Assembly: GCF_014697475.1 (NCBI RefSeq)
Contig: NZ_JACJRV010000016.1
Span: forward strand, 1-64,000
Source of the DNA: Nostoc sp. FACHB-152
Lineage (GTDB): Bacteria > Cyanobacteriota > Cyanobacteriia > Cyanobacteriales > Nostocaceae
Direction of reading: 5' to 3'
DNA: 64,000 nucleotides
Shown: piece by piece, positions 6,963 through 14,002 of the stretch
Numbering within the stretch: position 1 is the first letter of the stretch
How the letters are laid out: each line of letters opens with the position of its first letter
Translations under genes and position numbers: made by a program
The notes under the pieces: model-generated
Databases searched by the model: none
Told to the model about the DNA's origin: nothing
Seen by the model: only the letters and a program-made list of their open reading frames with translations

Positions 6963-8914
6963 ATGGCGTTTTTAGATAATTTTTTTTTACTAACCAGTTC
7001 ATTCCTCACGGACATTGTTATCTCTGGAAGCCTGGATTAGTCTGGTTACACGTCATATCAGATTCGCTCATTGCTTTAGCCTATTATTCCATCCCAGTAA
7101 TGCTAGTTTATTTTGTCCGCCGACGAAAAGATATACCTTTCGGCTGGATATTTTTAATGTTTAGTACATTTATTGTTGCTTGCGGCACAACCCATGTGAT
7201 GGATGTTTTAACGTTATGGCATCCTACCTATTGGTTATCAGGATTTATTAAAGCAATTACGGCTTTTGTCTCAGTAACTACTGCTATTAAGCTCTTTCCT
7301 TTGATACCTCTAGCACTTGCTTTACCAAGTCCTACACAATTAGAAGCAGCAAATTCCCAACTTGCAGCAGAGATTGCTGAACGCAAACGTACTGAAGAAG
7401 TACTAAGAGAGAGCGAAGAACGTTGGCAGTTAGCATTACGCGGTAATAATGATGGGATTTGGGATTGGAACGTCAAAACCAATGAAATTTTCTTCTCGGC
7501 TCGTTGCAAGAAAATGCTCGGTTATGAAGACGATGAGATTGTCAATCAACTTAAAGAAATATGGATACGAATTCATCCAGATGATGTTGATTTTGTAAAT
7601 AATACAATTCAAAATCATTTTGCTCAAATTACGCCGTTTTATGCTGCGGAATTTCGTGTTCTTTGTCAAGACGGAACATACAAATGGATTTTAGATCGAG
7701 GTCAAGCACTGTGGGATCAAAATGGTCAAGTAGTTAGAATGGTAGGGTCGCATACAGATATTACTGAGCGCAAGCAAGCAGAAGCTACTGTTAGCAAATT
7801 ACTTGCACAACTAGAGATAAAGGTCGAGGAACGAACAGCAGAGTTAAAAAGAATTAACACATCTCTACAAGCAGAAATATTAAAGCGTGAAGAGATAGAA
7901 AAGGCATTACGTGAAAGTGAAGAGCGATTCCGTACTGCATTCCATCAAGCCGCCGTTGGTATTGCCCATGTCGGATTAGATGGTAGATGGTTATTAGTAA
8001 ACCAAAGACTTTGCGATATTGTTGGTTACACACCACAGGAATTAGAGTTACGTACTTTTCAAGAGATTACTCATCCAGAAGATTTAGAGGCGGCTCTGAA
8101 ATATGTGAATGAAATGCTTATAGGTATTATTCAAACCTATACAATGGAAAAACGCTATATCCGCAAAGATAGTTCTATCATTTGGGTGAATATCACGGTG
8201 TCTTTAACGCACACATCTGCGGGGGAACCAAAGTATTTTATTTATGTTGTTGAAGATATTAGCGATCGCAAACATTCCCAAAATCAAATTCAAGCATCAA
8301 TTGTAGAAAAAGAAGTTTTACTTAAGGAAATTTACCATAGAGTTAAAAATAATTTGCAAGTAATTTCTAGTTTGCTTAACTTGCAATCTGAATATATTAA
8401 AGACAAACAAGACCTAGAAATATTCCAAAAAAGTCAGCAACGTATTGCTTCAATGGCTTTAATTCATGAAAAAATGTATCAATCTCCAGATTTAGCTCGG
8501 ATTGATTTCGGGGAATACATTCAAGATTTGGTTGCAACTTTATTTAGTTCTTACGAAGTTCAAGAAGGTTCAATTTCTTTAAACTTAAATCTTGATAATC
8601 ATGTTCTGCTCGGCTTAGATTTAGCAATTCCCTGTGGTTTAATTGTTCATGAATTAGTTTCTAATTCTTTGAAATATGCTTTTCCTCTAGGTGGCAAATG
8701 TGAGATTGATATTGATATTCGACAAAACAGTCAGCAGCAATCCATTATCACTGTCAGTGATAATGGAATAGGCTTACCACCTAATTTTGACTTTAAAAAT
8801 ACAGCCTCGTTAGGTTGGCAGTTAGTTGATGCTTTAATTTACCAAATATCAGGCGATATTAATATTGTAAGTAACAATGGTGTAAAGTTTCAAATAATAT
8901 TTCCTTTAATTTAA
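6963..8914 (+). CDS. Ethylene-receptor-like sensor histidine kinase, apparent frameshift in a T9 run
   Basis: The open frame from ATG 7100 begins inside a membrane domain. In the same frame the sequence upstream reads IPHGHCYLWKPGLVWLHVIS, then DSLIALAYYSIP, until a stop at 6977. With one extra T in the T9 run (6980-6988), ATG 6963 joins this frame (MAFLDNFFFTNQFIPHGHC). Numbered so, Asp34, Tyr41, Ile44, Pro45, Cys74 and His78 keep the spacing of ETR1 Asp25, Tyr32, Ile35, Pro36, Cys65 and His69, which bind copper and ethylene. From the 7100 start follow PAS/PAC at about 105-225, a coiled coil, a second PAS at about 275-390, HisKA_2 with His413 in EIYHRVKNNLQ, and an ATPase domain (Asn522, DNGIGLP). 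No ATG, GTG or TTG in this frame would retain helix 1. Downstream kinase is 12 bases away. Confidence 0.85.
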
Positions 8915-8926
8915 AAATACATATAC

Positions 8927-10450
8927 ATGACGAACGCAAATATTTTAGTTGTAGAAGATGAGGCTATTGTTGCAAAAGACTTGCAGAATCGACTTAAAAA
9001 ATTTGGTTATAAAGTTTGTGGTATTACTTCTTCAGGACAGGAAGCAATTAATAAAGCTAGAGAAATTAAACCTGATTTAATACTAATGGATGTTAGATTA
9101 AAAGGCCAAATAGACGGTATAAAAGCGGCTGAAGAAATTCATAAGTATTTAGATGTACCTGTAATATATTTAACTGCATACGCGGATGAAAATACTTTAG
9201 AAAGAGCCAAAATTACTGACCCTTTTGGCTACCTACTCAAACCTTTTAAAGAAAGAGAATTACAAACGAGTATTGAAATTGCCCTTACCAAGCATAGTCT
9301 AGAAAAGCAATTAAAATCTAACAAAAAGTGGTTAGCTACATTGCTAAATAGTATCAGTGACGGTGTGATAGCTAGTGATATGAATCAACTAATAACTTTT
9401 ATGAATCCTGTTGCAGAAAAATTAACAGGATGGCGGCAAGAAGAAGCTTTGGGAAAAAATATTGCAGAGATTTTTAGAATTGTGGATGCAAAAACTCGGC
9501 AACCATTAGAAATTCCCTTAAAAAAAGTTCTACAATCAAGTGATATTTCATCTTTGTCAACAGCAACTAGACTAATTGCTAAAAATGGTACAGAAACGCC
9601 AATTGATGACAGCACATCACCCATTAAAGACGACCAAGACAACATTACTGGTGCAGTGTTAGTATTCCGCGATGTCACGGAACGCCAACAAGCCATCGAA
9701 GCTAGACAAGAACAAATAAAACAGGAGCAACTTGTAGCGCAATTAGAACAGCTTAATCAACTCAAGAATGACTTTTTGGATTTAGTTTCTCACCAACTGC
9801 GATCGCCTTTATATAATATTAAGGGAATCGTTCAAACTCTAGAGATTTCTATAACGCCTCACCAAAAGCACTTGCTGTCTCTACTAGAAGCAGAGTGCGA
9901 TCGCGAAATGGAATTAATCAATGATTTATTAGATTTGCAAAAACTAGAAAATTCATCCTATTTCTTGCTCGCTCCTGAACTATTGCTATTACAACAATGG
10001 TTACCTTGGCTAATCGAGCCATTCCAAATTAGAACTAAAGAACATCAACAAACTTTGCAATTAAATCTGTCTCCCAATCAACCCGCATTATTTTCAGATC
10101 GTAATAGCTTAGAGCGCATTTTAGTAGAATTGCTTAATAATGCTTGTAAATACACTCCTCTTGGTGGTGAAATTATTTTGAATGTTAGTTTTTCTGCTGT
10201 TGAAGTTCCCCAAAAAACTATTATTACAGTGAGTAACTCAGCACACATTCCAGCAACAGAGTTACCAAGAATTTTTGAAAAATTTTACCGCATTCCCAAT
10301 AACGACCTGTGGAACCAAGGCGGTACGGGCTTAGGTTTAGCTATTGTGCAGAAACTAACAGAACAACTGCAAGGTAGCATTCAAGTTGAAAGCACCCAGG
10401 GCTGGACAAGGTTTACATTAATATTGAGTGATTTAGAGCTTAATAGCTAG
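8927..10450 (+). CDS. Hybrid response regulator-PAS-histidine kinase
   Basis: A 507-residue soluble signalling protein. The receiver domain (1-120) has phospho-acceptor Asp55 in LILMDVRL and the conserved Lys in LLKPF. A PAS domain follows at about 135-255, ending VFRDVTERQQ. The dimerisation domain carries His289 in LVSHQLRSPL, then an ATPase domain with ELLNNACKYTP and GGTGLGLAIV. It starts 12 bases after the ethylene-receptor-like kinase, so the two are surely co-transcribed. The simplest reading is a phosphorelay in which the membrane kinase phosphorylates Asp55, which then adjusts this kinase. No DNA-binding output domain is present, so a further partner must exist elsewhere. Confidence 0.88.
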   Translation: MTNANILVVEDEAIVAKDLQNRLKKFGYKVCGITSSGQEAINKAREIKPDLILMDVRLKGQIDGIKAAEEIHKYLDVPVIYLTAYADENTLERAKITDPFGYLLKPFKERELQTSIEIALTKHSLEKQLKSNKKWLATLLNSISDGVIASDMNQLITFMNPVAEKLTGWRQEEALGKNIAEIFRIVDAKTRQPLEIPLKKVLQSSDISSLSTATRLIAKNGTETPIDDSTSPIKDDQDNITGAVLVFRDVTERQQAIEARQEQIKQEQLVAQLEQLNQLKNDFLDLVSHQLRSPLYNIKGIVQTLEISITPHQKHLLSLLEAECDREMELINDLLDLQKLENSSYFLLAPELLLLQQWLPWLIEPFQIRTKEHQQTLQLNLSPNQPALFSDRNSLERILVELLNNACKYTPLGGEIILNVSFSAVEVPQKTIITVSNSAHIPATELPRIFEKFYRIPNNDLWNQGGTGLGLAIVQKLTEQLQGSIQVESTQGWTRFTLILSDLELNS

Positions 10451-10487
10451 TGCAAGCATTAAGTTAGTAAGTCGAACTTTTTATTAC

Positions 10488-10598
10488 TTAGACACAACTC
10501 TAGGAAGATGTGCTTATTTGTAACTGAGTTTAGATTAATCCTGGTGTGTCAAATAACTGCTTTCTACAAAGGTTTAGCTCAGTGCTAAACCTTTTTTG
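10488..10598 (+). ncRNA. Predicted small RNA unit A of a tandem array
   Basis: The shared element at 10488-10510 (TTAGACACAACTCTAGGAAG, then ATG) is followed about 60 bases on by a strong terminator: AGGTTTAGC pairs with GCTAAACCT over a 5-base loop, then six T. It could also simply end the upstream kinase operon, but the repetition further right argues for a separate unit. The promoter is not clear. Confidence 0.5.
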
Positions 10599-10693
10599 TA
10601 AATTCTTAAAATTCTAAAATATTAACTTTGAGTTTTTTCGACAATAGTTCACAATAATTAAAATGAACGCAATAAAAGCATATAGTGTGGTAT

Positions 10694-10800
10694 TTAGCTA
10701 TAACCCTTAGATAGATGAACTAAAGGAGTAGACGCAATAAATTATTGTTATAGTAAACTCTTGTTATATATTGACCTAGCTATCAGCTAGGTCAATATAT
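10694..10800 (+). ncRNA. Predicted small RNA unit B of a tandem array
   Basis: The shared element at 10694-10720 (CCCTTAGATAGATGAAC) continues as TAAAGGAGTAG and ends in a perfect 16-bp hairpin with a 3-base loop (arms 10766-10781 and 10785-10800). There is no U-run directly after it, so termination is less certain than in the other units. Unit E shares the 13 bases AGATGAACTAAAG with it. Confidence 0.45.
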
Positions 10801-10875
10801 AAACAAACCAAGTTTTTTTAAATTTTTCACTAATTTTACAAGTCATAAGCTGTTAAGCACCTAATTTGCAGTTTA

Positions 10876-10965
10876 GACCGCAGGGGATCCAGTACGTTGC
10901 GAAGCTTCCCTCCGTTGTAGCAACTGGTGTGAGCGGAGGGGCAAAGCAGCAGAGGAGAAAGTTTA
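10876..10965. repeat. GC-rich dispersed repeat with nested hairpins
   Basis: The stretch from ACCGCAGGGG to GCAGAGGAGAAAG stands out by composition. CCCTCCG pairs with CGGAGGG, and an overlapping pair CCAGTACGTTGC/GCAACTGG offers an alternative fold. The same ends (gccgcagggg, gcagaggagaaa) occur inside the MITE-like element at 55030-55132. Confidence 0.55.
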
Positions 10966-11171
10966 AGTCATTTATTCACAAATTCAATAGTGCAGCAAAT
11001 GCTGATTAGCTTATCATTAAGTAACTGATAATTTAGGCTTTTATAAAAAGCATATTTGAGATATGTTCTTTAACATAGATGGGATTTTTTATCTATACTT
11101 CAATAGATAGTTTAAATAAGTTATTTGTAGAGGTAATATTTTGTGACAGAATGCCTGAAAAAAGTATATTT

Positions 11172-11200
11172 ACCCTGGCAAAAACCAGGGTTTTATTTTT
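11172..11200 (+). terminator. Terminator of array unit C
   Basis: ACCCTGG pairs with CCAGGGT, followed by TTTATTTTT. The roughly 100 bases before it (from about 11085) contain AATAGATAG and GAGGTAATATTTTGTG but no full copy of the shared element, so the 5' end of the transcript cannot be placed. Confidence 0.65.
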
Positions 11201-11274
11201 GATAGTTTATTTAATCAGCTTATTAGAGAGGTAGGAAATTTTGCTATTCAAAGATGATTTATTCCTGCTATATC

Positions 11275-11304
11275 AAGGCGTGGCTAATAGCCACGCCTTT
11301 TTTA
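11275..11304 (+). terminator. Terminator of array unit D
   Basis: An 11-bp perfect stem (AAGGCGTGGCT with AGCCACGCCTT), 3-base loop and a T-run. Only about 70 bases separate it from the preceding terminator, so any transcript ending here is very short. AAAGATGATTTATTCC just before is a weak match to the shared element. Confidence 0.7.
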
Positions 11305-11448
11305 TATTTTTAGACAGTGGAAAAACAGCAGTTCATTTGTCGATGCTTAAAAAGTTTATTAATTTATCAGCATAGCATATATAAATTTATGCTTATATAG
11401 CAATGTTTATTCTTTTATTAGATCATAAGTTAGCAATTTCTAATAATT

Positions 11449-11474
11449 TTAGACATATCCTCAAGATAGATGAA
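11449..11474 (+). promoter_or_regulatory. Copy of the shared array element without a nearby terminator
   Basis: TTAGACATATCCTCAAGATA, then GATGAA matches the element of units A, B, E and F. No hairpin with a T-run follows within about 150 bases, so this unit may be decayed or may use the unit E terminator at 11725. Confidence 0.4.
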
Positions 11475-11640
11475 TTGTAAAAATAATATGTAATAAGCTG
11501 GTTTAATATTTTGTAAAAAACTATCTATGTTTATCTTTAACTAATTTTTTGTAATTAATCAGAACTTTATTTTGAGCATTTTTTGACCTAATCGAAGTTA
11601 AAACCCCAATTTTTGTTCTTTCAATATCAGTTTTAAAATA

Positions 11641-11752
11641 TTTTGCATACATCCCTTAGGAAGATGAACTAAAGTAAGTACCAGTGTAAATTAAAATTGG
11701 TGTAGTAAATGCTTGGTATACATAGGGCTTGGATAAACCAAGCCTTTTTTCG
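11641..11752 (+). ncRNA. Predicted small RNA unit E of a tandem array
   Basis: The element CCCTTAGGAAGATGAACTAA at 11653-11672 is followed by a possible ACCA...TGGT hairpin. A terminator at 11725-11752 (GGCTTGG with CCAAGCC, then six T) ends the unit. Together with unit B it defines the core AGATGAACTAAAG. Confidence 0.55.
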
Positions 11753-12016
11753 TGTAGAGCATCAGATTAATCTAGTTGTGTTATTGCTACGTTGTTCTAC
11801 ATAAGTGTTGGACTAGCTTAGAAAATTAATATTAAGAAAATCTAAAATATTTTGTATTAACCTTTTTTGGGCTTTAGTGCAGCAGTGAAGAGGAATCATT
11901 GCTTTTAACTGTGAGCAAGCAAAAGAATTGAGATTTATCTTATAAAATCTCAGAGATAAATATACAGCAATTAGTAACTGTATGAAATATTTGATAATTA
12001 CCAGATATTCGAGTAT

Positions 12017-12132
12017 TTAGATACAACCTCTAGGAAGATGATCTGTAGGCTAAGTCTGTCTACATTAATTTGGGATGTCTGCTTAAGCATTAGGACATTT
12101 CAAGGCTTAGTTAAATACTAAGCCTTTTTTTT
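12017..12132 (+). ncRNA. Predicted small RNA unit F of a tandem array
   Basis: The element TTAGATACAACCTCTAGGAA, then GATGA at 12017-12041 matches unit A in 20 of its first 23 positions. A terminator (AGGCTTAGT with ACTAAGCCT, then eight T) lies 62 bases further on. A second pairing, ATGTC with GACAT, is possible in between. Confidence 0.55.
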
Positions 12133-12184
12133 AAGTTTTATTTTGCTCACCTAAATTCAGCCATTGCGCCTGCTGTTGCTGGAA

Positions 12185-12395
12185 AATTTGGCACGTAGAC
12201 GCAAGGCGGTGAAGGGGTCAGAGTCTTGGATGCCACTTGACGACAGTTGCCTCAAGTTGGGAGACCCTTCCACCGCAGTGGCTCCGCTTCCTGTCGAGTC
12301 TGAACCCCTGAACCCGTTCGACGAAGTCGTTCTCGTTCGCGCAGTGTCTCCGTCAGGAGAAGAGTAGGGCTTGTCCTTGGACATCGCCTTCCTTT
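12185..12395. repeat. GC-rich dispersed repeat element
   Basis: About 210 bases of clearly higher GC than the surroundings, with outer arms GGGGTCAGAGTC and GAGTCTGAACCCC and several internal short inverted repeats (CTTGA...TCAAG). Fragments such as GGGAGACCC and CGCAGTG recur at 24535-24575. Short open frames cross it on both strands but look like by-products of composition. Confidence 0.6.
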
Positions 12396-12518
12396 TGTAC
12401 CTGATATTGCAAATAACGGATTACAATTATGTAAAAATTGCATAAAGAGTGATGCAATAGTGTCCAACTAGTGCGATTCTCGTTATGTAGGAATAGGTTG
12501 ATGCTGATAGAGATAGAT

Positions 12519-12550
12519 ACCCCTGGACACAAACCAGGGGCTTTTTATTT
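12519..12550 (+). terminator. Terminator of array unit G
   Basis: CCCCTGG pairs with CCAGGGG across a 7-base loop, followed by CTTTTTATTT. It faces the 3' end of rtcB but its T-run is on the + strand only, so it does not serve rtcB. GTAGGAATAGGTTGATG, 30 bases upstream, is a weak relative of the shared element. Confidence 0.65.
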
Positions 12551-12562
12551 GTAGCTGACATC

Positions 12563-14002
12563 TTATGCTTTAAACGTCAACACTGGACTTAACCGTGCTA
12601 CGACATCTACCATTCCCGCCGCTACCTGCACATCAATGACTGATTGAATTGGCTTGTAGGCAGCAGGTGCTTCTTCAATACGACGTTCTTCACGTAAGGT
12701 AATGCAGTCTACTCCACTTAATCCCAGTTCAGATTCAGTTTGGGATGCACCTTTGCGGCTCAAGTCAAATCGACTACGTAATCTGCCAGCACCATGCGAA
12801 GCCGAATTACAAAAAGCGGGATTGCCTTTGCCTACCATCAGGTAAGAGTAAGCACCCATTGAACCAGGAATAATTACAGGTTGCCCTGGATGGGCGGGAC
12901 AAGCACCTTTACGCGTTACCCATCCTTGACCTTCTCTTAAAGTAATGTTGTGGGGCAAATCGTAAATTAAAGGTGCTTCCACATCACCGTAGACTTCTCG
13001 CAAACGCAGACGTAGCAGTTCCGCTAACAACAGGCGATTCATAAAGCCGTAATTTGCAGCAGTCGCCTCGGCTTGCAGATAACTAGCAACTAATTCTGGG
13101 TGTGAATGTACAGACAAAGGGAAAATTTGCGATTCTGGGTATTTCAGACCTTTAGGCCAAGTTGCCTTAGTTTTATCTCGCCACATTCCGCCAATGTATT
13201 TACCCACATTGCGCGAACCAGAGTGAACCATAAAAGCTAATTGTCCCTCTCTGATTCCCCAAGCGTAGGCAAGCGATCGCTTTTCGACTTGATCAACCCT
13301 TTGCACTTCTACAAAATGGTTGCCAGAACCGATAGTAGCCAATCCTCCATCCCTTACTAGTCCAGCATCAGGAACTAATTCTTCTGGTGCTAACTTCCAG
13401 TCGCCAGCCATTGCACCATCCAAAAATATAGATTCGCTTTCCTGAGAAAGTTGATCTAAGTCAGACTTGACAAAACTACCTGTAGGCTGATCCAACATGG
13501 CATCCAACCAACCGGGAACACCATACTGAAATAAAGCTTGCATTGTGTTAGCCGTCATGGTGACATCCCTGGTACCAAAGAAGTAATCCCCTTTCATGCG
13601 TTCTACAAATAAGTCCCGCTTGGAGAGAAATTCTTCAATCGTCAAATCAGCGACGTGCAAACGCATCCCGCAGTTAATATCAGAACCGACAGCTGCCGGA
13701 ATCACCTGATCTACCGTTTCGACTACAGAACCAATGGCAACACCCGCATCACCAGGGTGAAAATCAGGTGTAGCGCAGGCACGACAGACACATCCGCCAT
13801 TGGGGTGGCGTACATTTGCTAAATTAGCTAACTGTTTTAGTGCTTTGGCTTCGACGGGAAAGCCTTCTGGTAATAGCACTTCTGCTGCTGGTGCATCAGG
13901 AGAATTAGTTAAACGGACAGAATAAATACCGTTGCTATAAGTCACATCCAAACCTTGCCGCGCTAAAGCACGCAGCAGTCGTTGAAGATTTTTGGGCTGC
14001 AT
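12563..14002 (-). CDS. rtcB: RNA-splicing ligase RtcB
   Basis: RtcB ligates RNA 2',3'-cyclic phosphate or 3'-phosphate ends to 5'-OH ends with GTP and Mn2+. All expected metal and guanylylation residues are visible: Asp108 and Cys111 in GSDINCGMR, His229 in GSGNHF, His260 in VHSGSRNVG, His351 in DLPHNI, and the guanylated His403 in SHGAGR. At 479 residues it is full length. It has no archease or rtcR neighbour and stands alone, convergent with the terminator-rich array. Targets in cyanobacteria are not known to me. Confidence 0.92.
   Translation of the reverse strand: MQPKNLQRLLRALARQGLDVTYSNGIYSVRLTNSPDAPAAEVLLPEGFPVEAKALKQLANLANVRHPNGGCVCRACATPDFHPGDAGVAIGSVVETVDQVIPAAVGSDINCGMRLHVADLTIEEFLSKRDLFVERMKGDYFFGTRDVTMTANTMQALFQYGVPGWLDAMLDQPTGSFVKSDLDQLSQESESIFLDGAMAGDWKLAPEELVPDAGLVRDGGLATIGSGNHFVEVQRVDQVEKRSLAYAWGIREGQLAFMVHSGSRNVGKYIGGMWRDKTKATWPKGLKYPESQIFPLSVHSHPELVASYLQAEATAANYGFMNRLLLAELLRLRLREVYGDVEAPLIYDLPHNITLREGQGWVTRKGACPAHPGQPVIIPGSMGAYSYLMVGKGNPAFCNSASHGAGRLRSRFDLSRKGASQTESELGLSGVDCITLREERRIEEAPAAYKPIQSVIDVQVAAGMVDVVARLSPVLTFKA

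Follow-up and report, generated by a model that had tools for sequence, protein, structure and literature searches.

The gene-free interval between positions 10451 and 12562 of the window (the whole 64,000-nucleotide stretch of Nostoc sp. FACHB-152 DNA analyzed here) is probably an array of co-regulated genes encoding trans-acting small RNAs (sRNAs) of different specificities. These 2.1 kb carry eight plus-strand units (U1 to U8) between a response-regulator/histidine kinase gene on the left (8927-10450, plus strand) and an rtcB-like gene on the right (12563-14002, minus strand), both named by inspection, and contain ORFs of 20-75 amino acids and none of at least 90. The genome comprises 8.6 Mb in 190 contigs. 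A preliminary description had read the interval as a family of sRNAs with different bodies and either a shared promoter or a shared 5' end, and comparison with relatives supports both for the predicted family. The five element copies on which it was built are all there (10491, 10697, 11452, 11645 and 12020), as are its six U-tailed plus-strand hairpins (approximately 10569-10593, 11172-11191, 11275-11299, 11724-11746, 12102-12126 and 12520-12540), and a terminator or palindrome follows four of the five elements at about the distance it gave, the exception being the copy at 11452. The perfect hairpin that it reported lies at 10764-10802, with a stem of 18 bp instead of 16. The copy at 11452 is a remnant. 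The hairpins at 11172, 11275 and 12520 mark three further units, with diverged or decayed elements, that it had missed, the one at 11275 being part of a decayed unit.

BLAST searches of 60 genomes with the interval returned matches in 34, its own genome included, part of them to two interspersed repeats and not to units. The 34 loci fetched were oriented by their matches; two (L042 and L054) contained no elements. Across loci and window, 93 element copies lie on the array strand versus one on the other, and in 89 of 94 elements (32 relative loci and the window, U1 added) a terminator ends 82-95 nt past the predicted start, with a median of 91. The alignment of these 89 units, from which the five without a terminator near 91 nt were left out, has AGGAAGATGAACT in common, followed by a linker, TAAATTAA, a type-specific core and the terminator; the units were collected by likeness to the window elements, and the shared 5' end is thus partly a selection effect. 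A typical unit consists of a promoter-like block (TATCA, 12 nt, TTTGnnYACA), the 5' end AGGAAGATGAACT, a variable linker, a core some 20-25 nt long and an intrinsic terminator. We distinguish types a, b, c, d, e (at two positions), f, g and h, as well as s, which lies in the array and has an h-like terminator but differs in its upstream region. Model R1 was built from 72 transcribed sequences, those left of 89 after hand removal of near-duplicates, without promoters and without type g. A matrix of promoter and 5' end was built from 86 units of relatives, window units excluded; those units had been found with an earlier matrix seeded by the five copies in the window. The interval contains the following features:

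10502-10598, plus strand: U1, type a; core GGTGTGTCAAATAACTGCTTTC, terminator stem 10569-10593, promoter eroded.
10671-10708, plus strand: promoter-like block of U2; matrix score 31.5 with the 5' end, the matrix being trained without window units.
10709-10803, plus strand: U2, type e (left); R1 59.5 bits, 18-bp perfect hairpin 10764-10802, fold z = -6.8.
10845-11013, no strand: interspersed repeat between units, outside the array; four more matches in the same genome.
11105-11191, plus strand: U3, type h, diverged; 5' AGATAG, core GAATGCCTGAAAAAAGTATAT, terminator ACCCTGG/CCAGGGT at 11172-11191.
11229-11303, plus strand: U4, type e (right), decayed; R1 38.5 bits, terminator 11275-11299 intact.
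11426-11520, plus strand: U5, remnant of a type d unit (start 11464) that retains promoter and 5' end but has lost its core and terminator; matrix score 33.1.
11620-11657, plus strand: promoter-like block of U6; TATCAG, 11 nt, TTTGCATACATCC, matrix score 53.5 with the 5' end.
11658-11751, plus strand: U6, type b; core TTGGTGTAGTAAATGCTTGGTATA, terminator 11724-11746, R1 78 bits.
11994-12031, plus strand: promoter-like block of U7; matrix score 46.0 with the 5' end.
12032-12131, plus strand: U7, type c; core GGATGTCTGCTTAAGCATTAGGA, terminator 12102-12126, R1 77 bits, orthologs at locus B of relatives.
12193-12370, no strand: interspersed repeat-like stretch in the gap between U7 and U8; short matches to its parts at many places in relatives.
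12383-12549, plus strand: U8, type s; conserved block, predicted RNA at about 12489-12545, terminator 12520-12540.

The order in the window is hence a, e, h, e (decayed), d (decayed), b, c, s. The body of U1, itself one of the R1 training sequences, scores 78 bits with that model and has matches of 76-86% identity in relatives; its promoter is one base shorter. The U2 hairpin lacks a U tail, and relatives show at that place a shorter terminator hairpin followed by several Ts. In relatives that keep both e units, orthologs of U3, whose start is a predicted one, lie between the left and the right one. The types of the two decayed units rest on position and weak matches: U4 was assigned from its place in the conserved order and because relatives match its 3' part (no more than 11264-11322) at 79-86%, and U5, which gives no R1 match at E <= 10, matches the type d unit of a related locus (L027) at 72% over 11431-11517. 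The U6 promoter block fits the promoter pattern exactly, and its core occurs with 0-1 mismatches, once per genome, in 16 of 50 family genomes. U8 has matches of 79-86% identity, its terminators and upstream DNA align across relatives, and it stands last wherever it is recognized; the DNA upstream of it (12383-12500) carries TGCAA/TTGCA repeats that are kept in many relatives and might form an operator of its own. Neither repeat stretch (10845-11013 and 12193-12370) showed an inverted repeat of at least 12 nt within it or right around it.

A terminator scan of the interval detected six U-tailed hairpins, versus 0.9 expected in shuffles; five of these are among the hairpins listed above and the sixth is a weak one at 12044, the hairpin at 10569 having been seen in separate analyses. 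In the aligned units, 98.4% of the cells of the terminator helix are paired, a figure favored by the choice of units for having a hairpin, and 62 cells have both sides changed, versus 20.1 in shuffles. At the level of sequence, the units thus present the promoter of their own and the intrinsic terminator by which trans-acting sRNA genes are judged, with three exceptions in the window: U1 with its eroded promoter, U2 with a hairpin lacking the U tail and U5 without a terminator.

Upstream of the predicted start, the conserved positions are mostly TATCA near -33, TTTG near -16, YACA near -10 and CC at -5/-4; farther out than about -40, conservation is at background level. Scanning both strands of the 64 kb with the matrix, the top sites were 11658 (53.5 bits), 12032 (46.0), 11464 (33.1) and 10709 (31.5), with U1 not among them; the next-best site scored -1.9, and 20 simulated 64-kb sequences gave at most 10.6. 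In a held-out test on 20 later loci, some of them near-duplicates (e.g., L104 and L106), the promoter exceeded the 99.9% null level at 73 of 89 R1 hits, falling under it at 16, and exceeded the 99% level at 78; the 89 are what was left of 92 hits once three weak opposite-strand rows had been removed. Across 80 family genomes the promoter pattern returned 68 matches in 41 genomes, and its reversed control none. Fetching the 36 sites that fell outside the arrays known at that point yielded 29 units (26 of type g, two of type b and one of type e) and seven sites without a unit, and 27 of the remaining 32 matches abut listed units, which brings the matches at units to 56 of 68, with seven elsewhere and five unassessed. 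With most of its matches at units, the predicted promoter is nearly private to this putative sRNA family. Sites for SigJ (J-Box), NtcA and DIF1 were sought in the interval and rejected, none being present; the DIF1 motif TCCGGA is absent from both strands of 10451-12562.

Comparison with related genomes, which the preliminary description had recommended, revealed that the same array recurs in the same order across Nostoc-like cyanobacteria. The order a-f-e-h-e-d-b-c-s is kept in 35 of 36 arrays of a first genome set and in all 39 arrays of genomes from named species, two sets that overlap in genomes and the second of which was chosen by type b. The test required at least three types per array, leaving out 18 of 54 and 6 of 45 loci, respectively, and accepted e at any position between a/f and d/b/c/s; the one exception (L031) is due to an extra e-like match about 3 kb away. 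All nine units are present in Amazonocrinis nigriterrae CENA67 (L126). Ten relatives of the same genus (G001-G010) carry the units up to b and the units c/s on separate contigs or far apart, with only s recognized at the second place in G002 and, at the first place in G006, b alone, identified by its core. Other genera, too, have undivided arrays with c and s at the end, which indicates that the window holds the undivided form. One locus (L112, in the 3.8-Mb genome G023) is unlike these tidy arrays, with four R1 matches of which two lie on opposite strands at one place.

The genes around the arrays, named by inspection, vary by genome, being contractile-injection-like and chemotaxis-like genes, a glycosidase and molybdate transport, or a kinase pair; what is conserved is therefore the array and not its site. 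The kinase-like pair to the left of the interval (7100-10450) also lies beside arrays in G006 and, inverted, in G025 (loci compared: L026 and L037), possibly reflecting an older array site or a functional link. Arrays that stand beside different genes in different genomes would also suit a conserved block that is mainly a DNA element, such as an operator or recombination site, with RNAs as by-products, and a partial inverted repeat, CATC...GATG, does span the predicted start. This explanation is nevertheless quite improbable: the terminator stems show compensatory changes, the best-conserved part is the cores, which lie inside the RNA, the units keep to the strand of the array (462 cores, versus three on the opposite strand, in two overlapping sets), and the type b unit had no match on plasmids or phages. 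This last result, together with a search of viral contigs in which the type d core had no match, led us to reject a plasmid or phage element as well.

Within types, the cores are the most constant segment of the units. In types a to e and g (f, h and s being left out of these figures), core identity is 0.92-1.00, versus 0.39-0.59 for linkers and 0.31-0.38 for DNA further upstream; identical copies were removed, the sets for the two e positions overlap, and the cores were gathered with 4-5 substitutions allowed, so that a more diverged core would be missed. In type g, 25 of 25 core positions are unchanged in 26 distinct copies, and this unchanged 25-nt segment exceeds what a simple seed requires. 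Cores b and g occur in one copy per carrier genome at 0-1 mismatches. Searching for long complements of these two cores (at most 3 mismatches, 50 genomes each) returned only the sRNA genes and a single 3-mismatch site for b; any pairing would therefore be short or imperfect. Folded alone, most cores are weak, with c as the exception, which fits single-stranded recognition segments with short seeds. Core sequences searched in the open-access literature gave only unrelated matches.

These properties bear on whether the predicted RNAs pair with targets at all. They might instead bind a protein, the invariant 5' end and the cores serving as binding sites and the array setting the dose of a protein sponge. 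The frozen type g core and the lack of long complements for cores b and g are in keeping with this idea, as are GATG at +6 to +9 and G at +2, almost invariant positions that the search favored. Cores that differ strongly between types while frozen within them are better suited by separate specificities, however, and most cores fold weakly, so that we consider protein binding unlikely. As to short mRNAs for tiny proteins, AGGAAGATG contains a Shine-Dalgarno-like AGGA and an ATG, U1 carries a 26-codon ORF, and the ORF reaches at least 20 codons in 25 of the 87 units with ATG at +7, all types pooled, so that some units may be translated. Against this, the median ORF from the shared ATG in those units is 7 codons, 52 of the 87 have at most 10, and in type b a stop often follows the first two codons, which makes a coding role very improbable. 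The preliminary description had named a conserved hidden ORF as the finding that would speak against sRNA genes; the ORF listings and the ORF length from the shared ATG reveal none common to the units, and such a common ORF was rejected, although single types may still carry one.

In 388 genomes of the order, units were detected at E <= 1e-3 and under stricter filters in 58, of which 57 belong to the family of the window; the single carrier outside it has E = 1e-3. An exact scan of genomes from named species with a 22-nt segment from core b identified 45 stretches, in Nostoc, Anabaena, Cylindrospermum, Nodularia, Desmonostoc, Fortiea, Anabaenopsis and other cyanobacteria, genera that we take to belong to the Nostocales. 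Among 40 genomes spread over the family, 23 carry units and 22 have a match over the cut-off to the Rfam family RF02596 (cyano_het_sRNA). All 22 are among the 23 unit carriers, with G016 as the exception, and 17 genomes have neither; 14 control genomes gave no RF02596 match over the cut-off and two below it. The 22 strongest RF02596 matches in the 40 genomes (71-87 bits) are, as identified by position, the dispersed type g unit, which agrees with the array units in promoter, 5' end, length and terminator. R1, built without type g, matches the type g loci over positions 1-95, and on this ground RF02596 is, by sequence, the 3' part of a dispersed member of the putative sRNA family. The RF02596 model spans 56 positions of core and terminator, mainly of one type, without the shared 5' end and without the array; four array units of the 40 genomes also exceed its cut-off and many more fall below it. 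The Rfam search proposed in the preliminary description gave a mixed outcome for the window itself, whose units are homologous to RF02596 members and yet do not reach the gathering score of 35.7, the best three plus-strand matches having 25.9-27.3 bits. A dispersed type g unit of the same genome (G000:C1:176869-176967, L095) scores 75.4 bits with RF02596 and has the same type of promoter and 5' end. No neighbor is common to 27 type g loci, the largest neighbor family comprising 10 ORFs, and no mention of RF02596 was found in the open-access literature searched.

Tandem sRNA arrays are known from this group of organisms. Nostoc sp. PCC 7120 carries NsiR1 (RF02399) upstream of hetF in 12 tandem copies; according to the available part of that report, seven copies are identical, their promoters carry DIF1, and copies with diverged sequence can differ in targets (PMC9045159). 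The parallel with NsiR1 drawn in the preliminary description stands as an analogy: both are tandem arrangements of short RNA genes with an own promoter each, a likeness of architecture only. Unlike NsiR1, each unit in the window carries a frozen core of its own and DIF1 is absent; no connection to heterocysts was seen. The units, of unlike types, are flanked by the histidine kinase and rtcB genes (names by inspection). The only NsiR1 match in the interval, at 12499-12548, has 17.5 bits against a gathering score of 39, and with this score and the absence of DIF1 we rejected membership in that family. The accessible text of a Nostoc sp. PCC 7120 catalogue of sRNAs confined to heterocystous strains lists three of 89, 92 and 95 nt and a Northern-verified one of 51 nt (PMC4734099), lengths that, compared as lengths only, resemble those of the 91-nt units and of s; no array of unlike sRNAs is described in that text. 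The J-Box of SigJ in hormogonia, GGGaAtacT, is of the extended -10 type with an absolutely conserved trio of Gs, in the portion of the source at hand (PMC6495340). The promoter predicted for the units is likewise of the extended -10 type in Nostoc, but G is frequent in it only at -13 and -12, and the interval contains no J-Box. The available text of PMC3610870 gives no start sites near the Nodularia array, and the open-access literature searched yielded no description of the array.

The anatomy of the units, their conservation, the near-private promoter, the fixed order and the decay of single units are observed features of these genomes, from which we infer transcription, its start site, joint regulation and target pairing. 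An array of co-regulated sRNA genes would work as follows. Each intact unit would be transcribed alone from its own promoter-like block, the transcript starting at or near AGGAAGAUG and ending about 91 nt further on at the intrinsic terminator. Because the family shares its promoter and 5' end, a single signal, acting through a dedicated activator, repressor or sigma factor, would switch the whole set on together. The unit-specific core, mostly weakly structured and near-unchanged between genera, would pair with the mRNAs of its own unit, and one signal would thereby be spread over several target groups; that different units address different targets is plausible. More tentatively, the set may constitute a regulon of regulators, with up to nine sRNA genes in fixed order that are not co-transcribed, most of them under copies of one private promoter read by a regulator dedicated to this sRNA family alone, frozen cores leading to many target groups, and one dispersed member (RF02596) present and absent together with the array.

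Tandem sRNA arrays were already known and one member of the family is in Rfam; the array described here adds a fixed-order set of unlike putative sRNAs. The copies of the NsiR1 array are mostly alike, whereas those of the array described here are split into near-frozen types with promoter and order in common. If this reading is correct, it would extend an Rfam family that now covers part of one member only, and would provide a ready set of co-regulated RNAs for testing in Nostoc or Anabaena. It would also raise the question of which regulator reads the near-private promoter and why the order of the units is kept.
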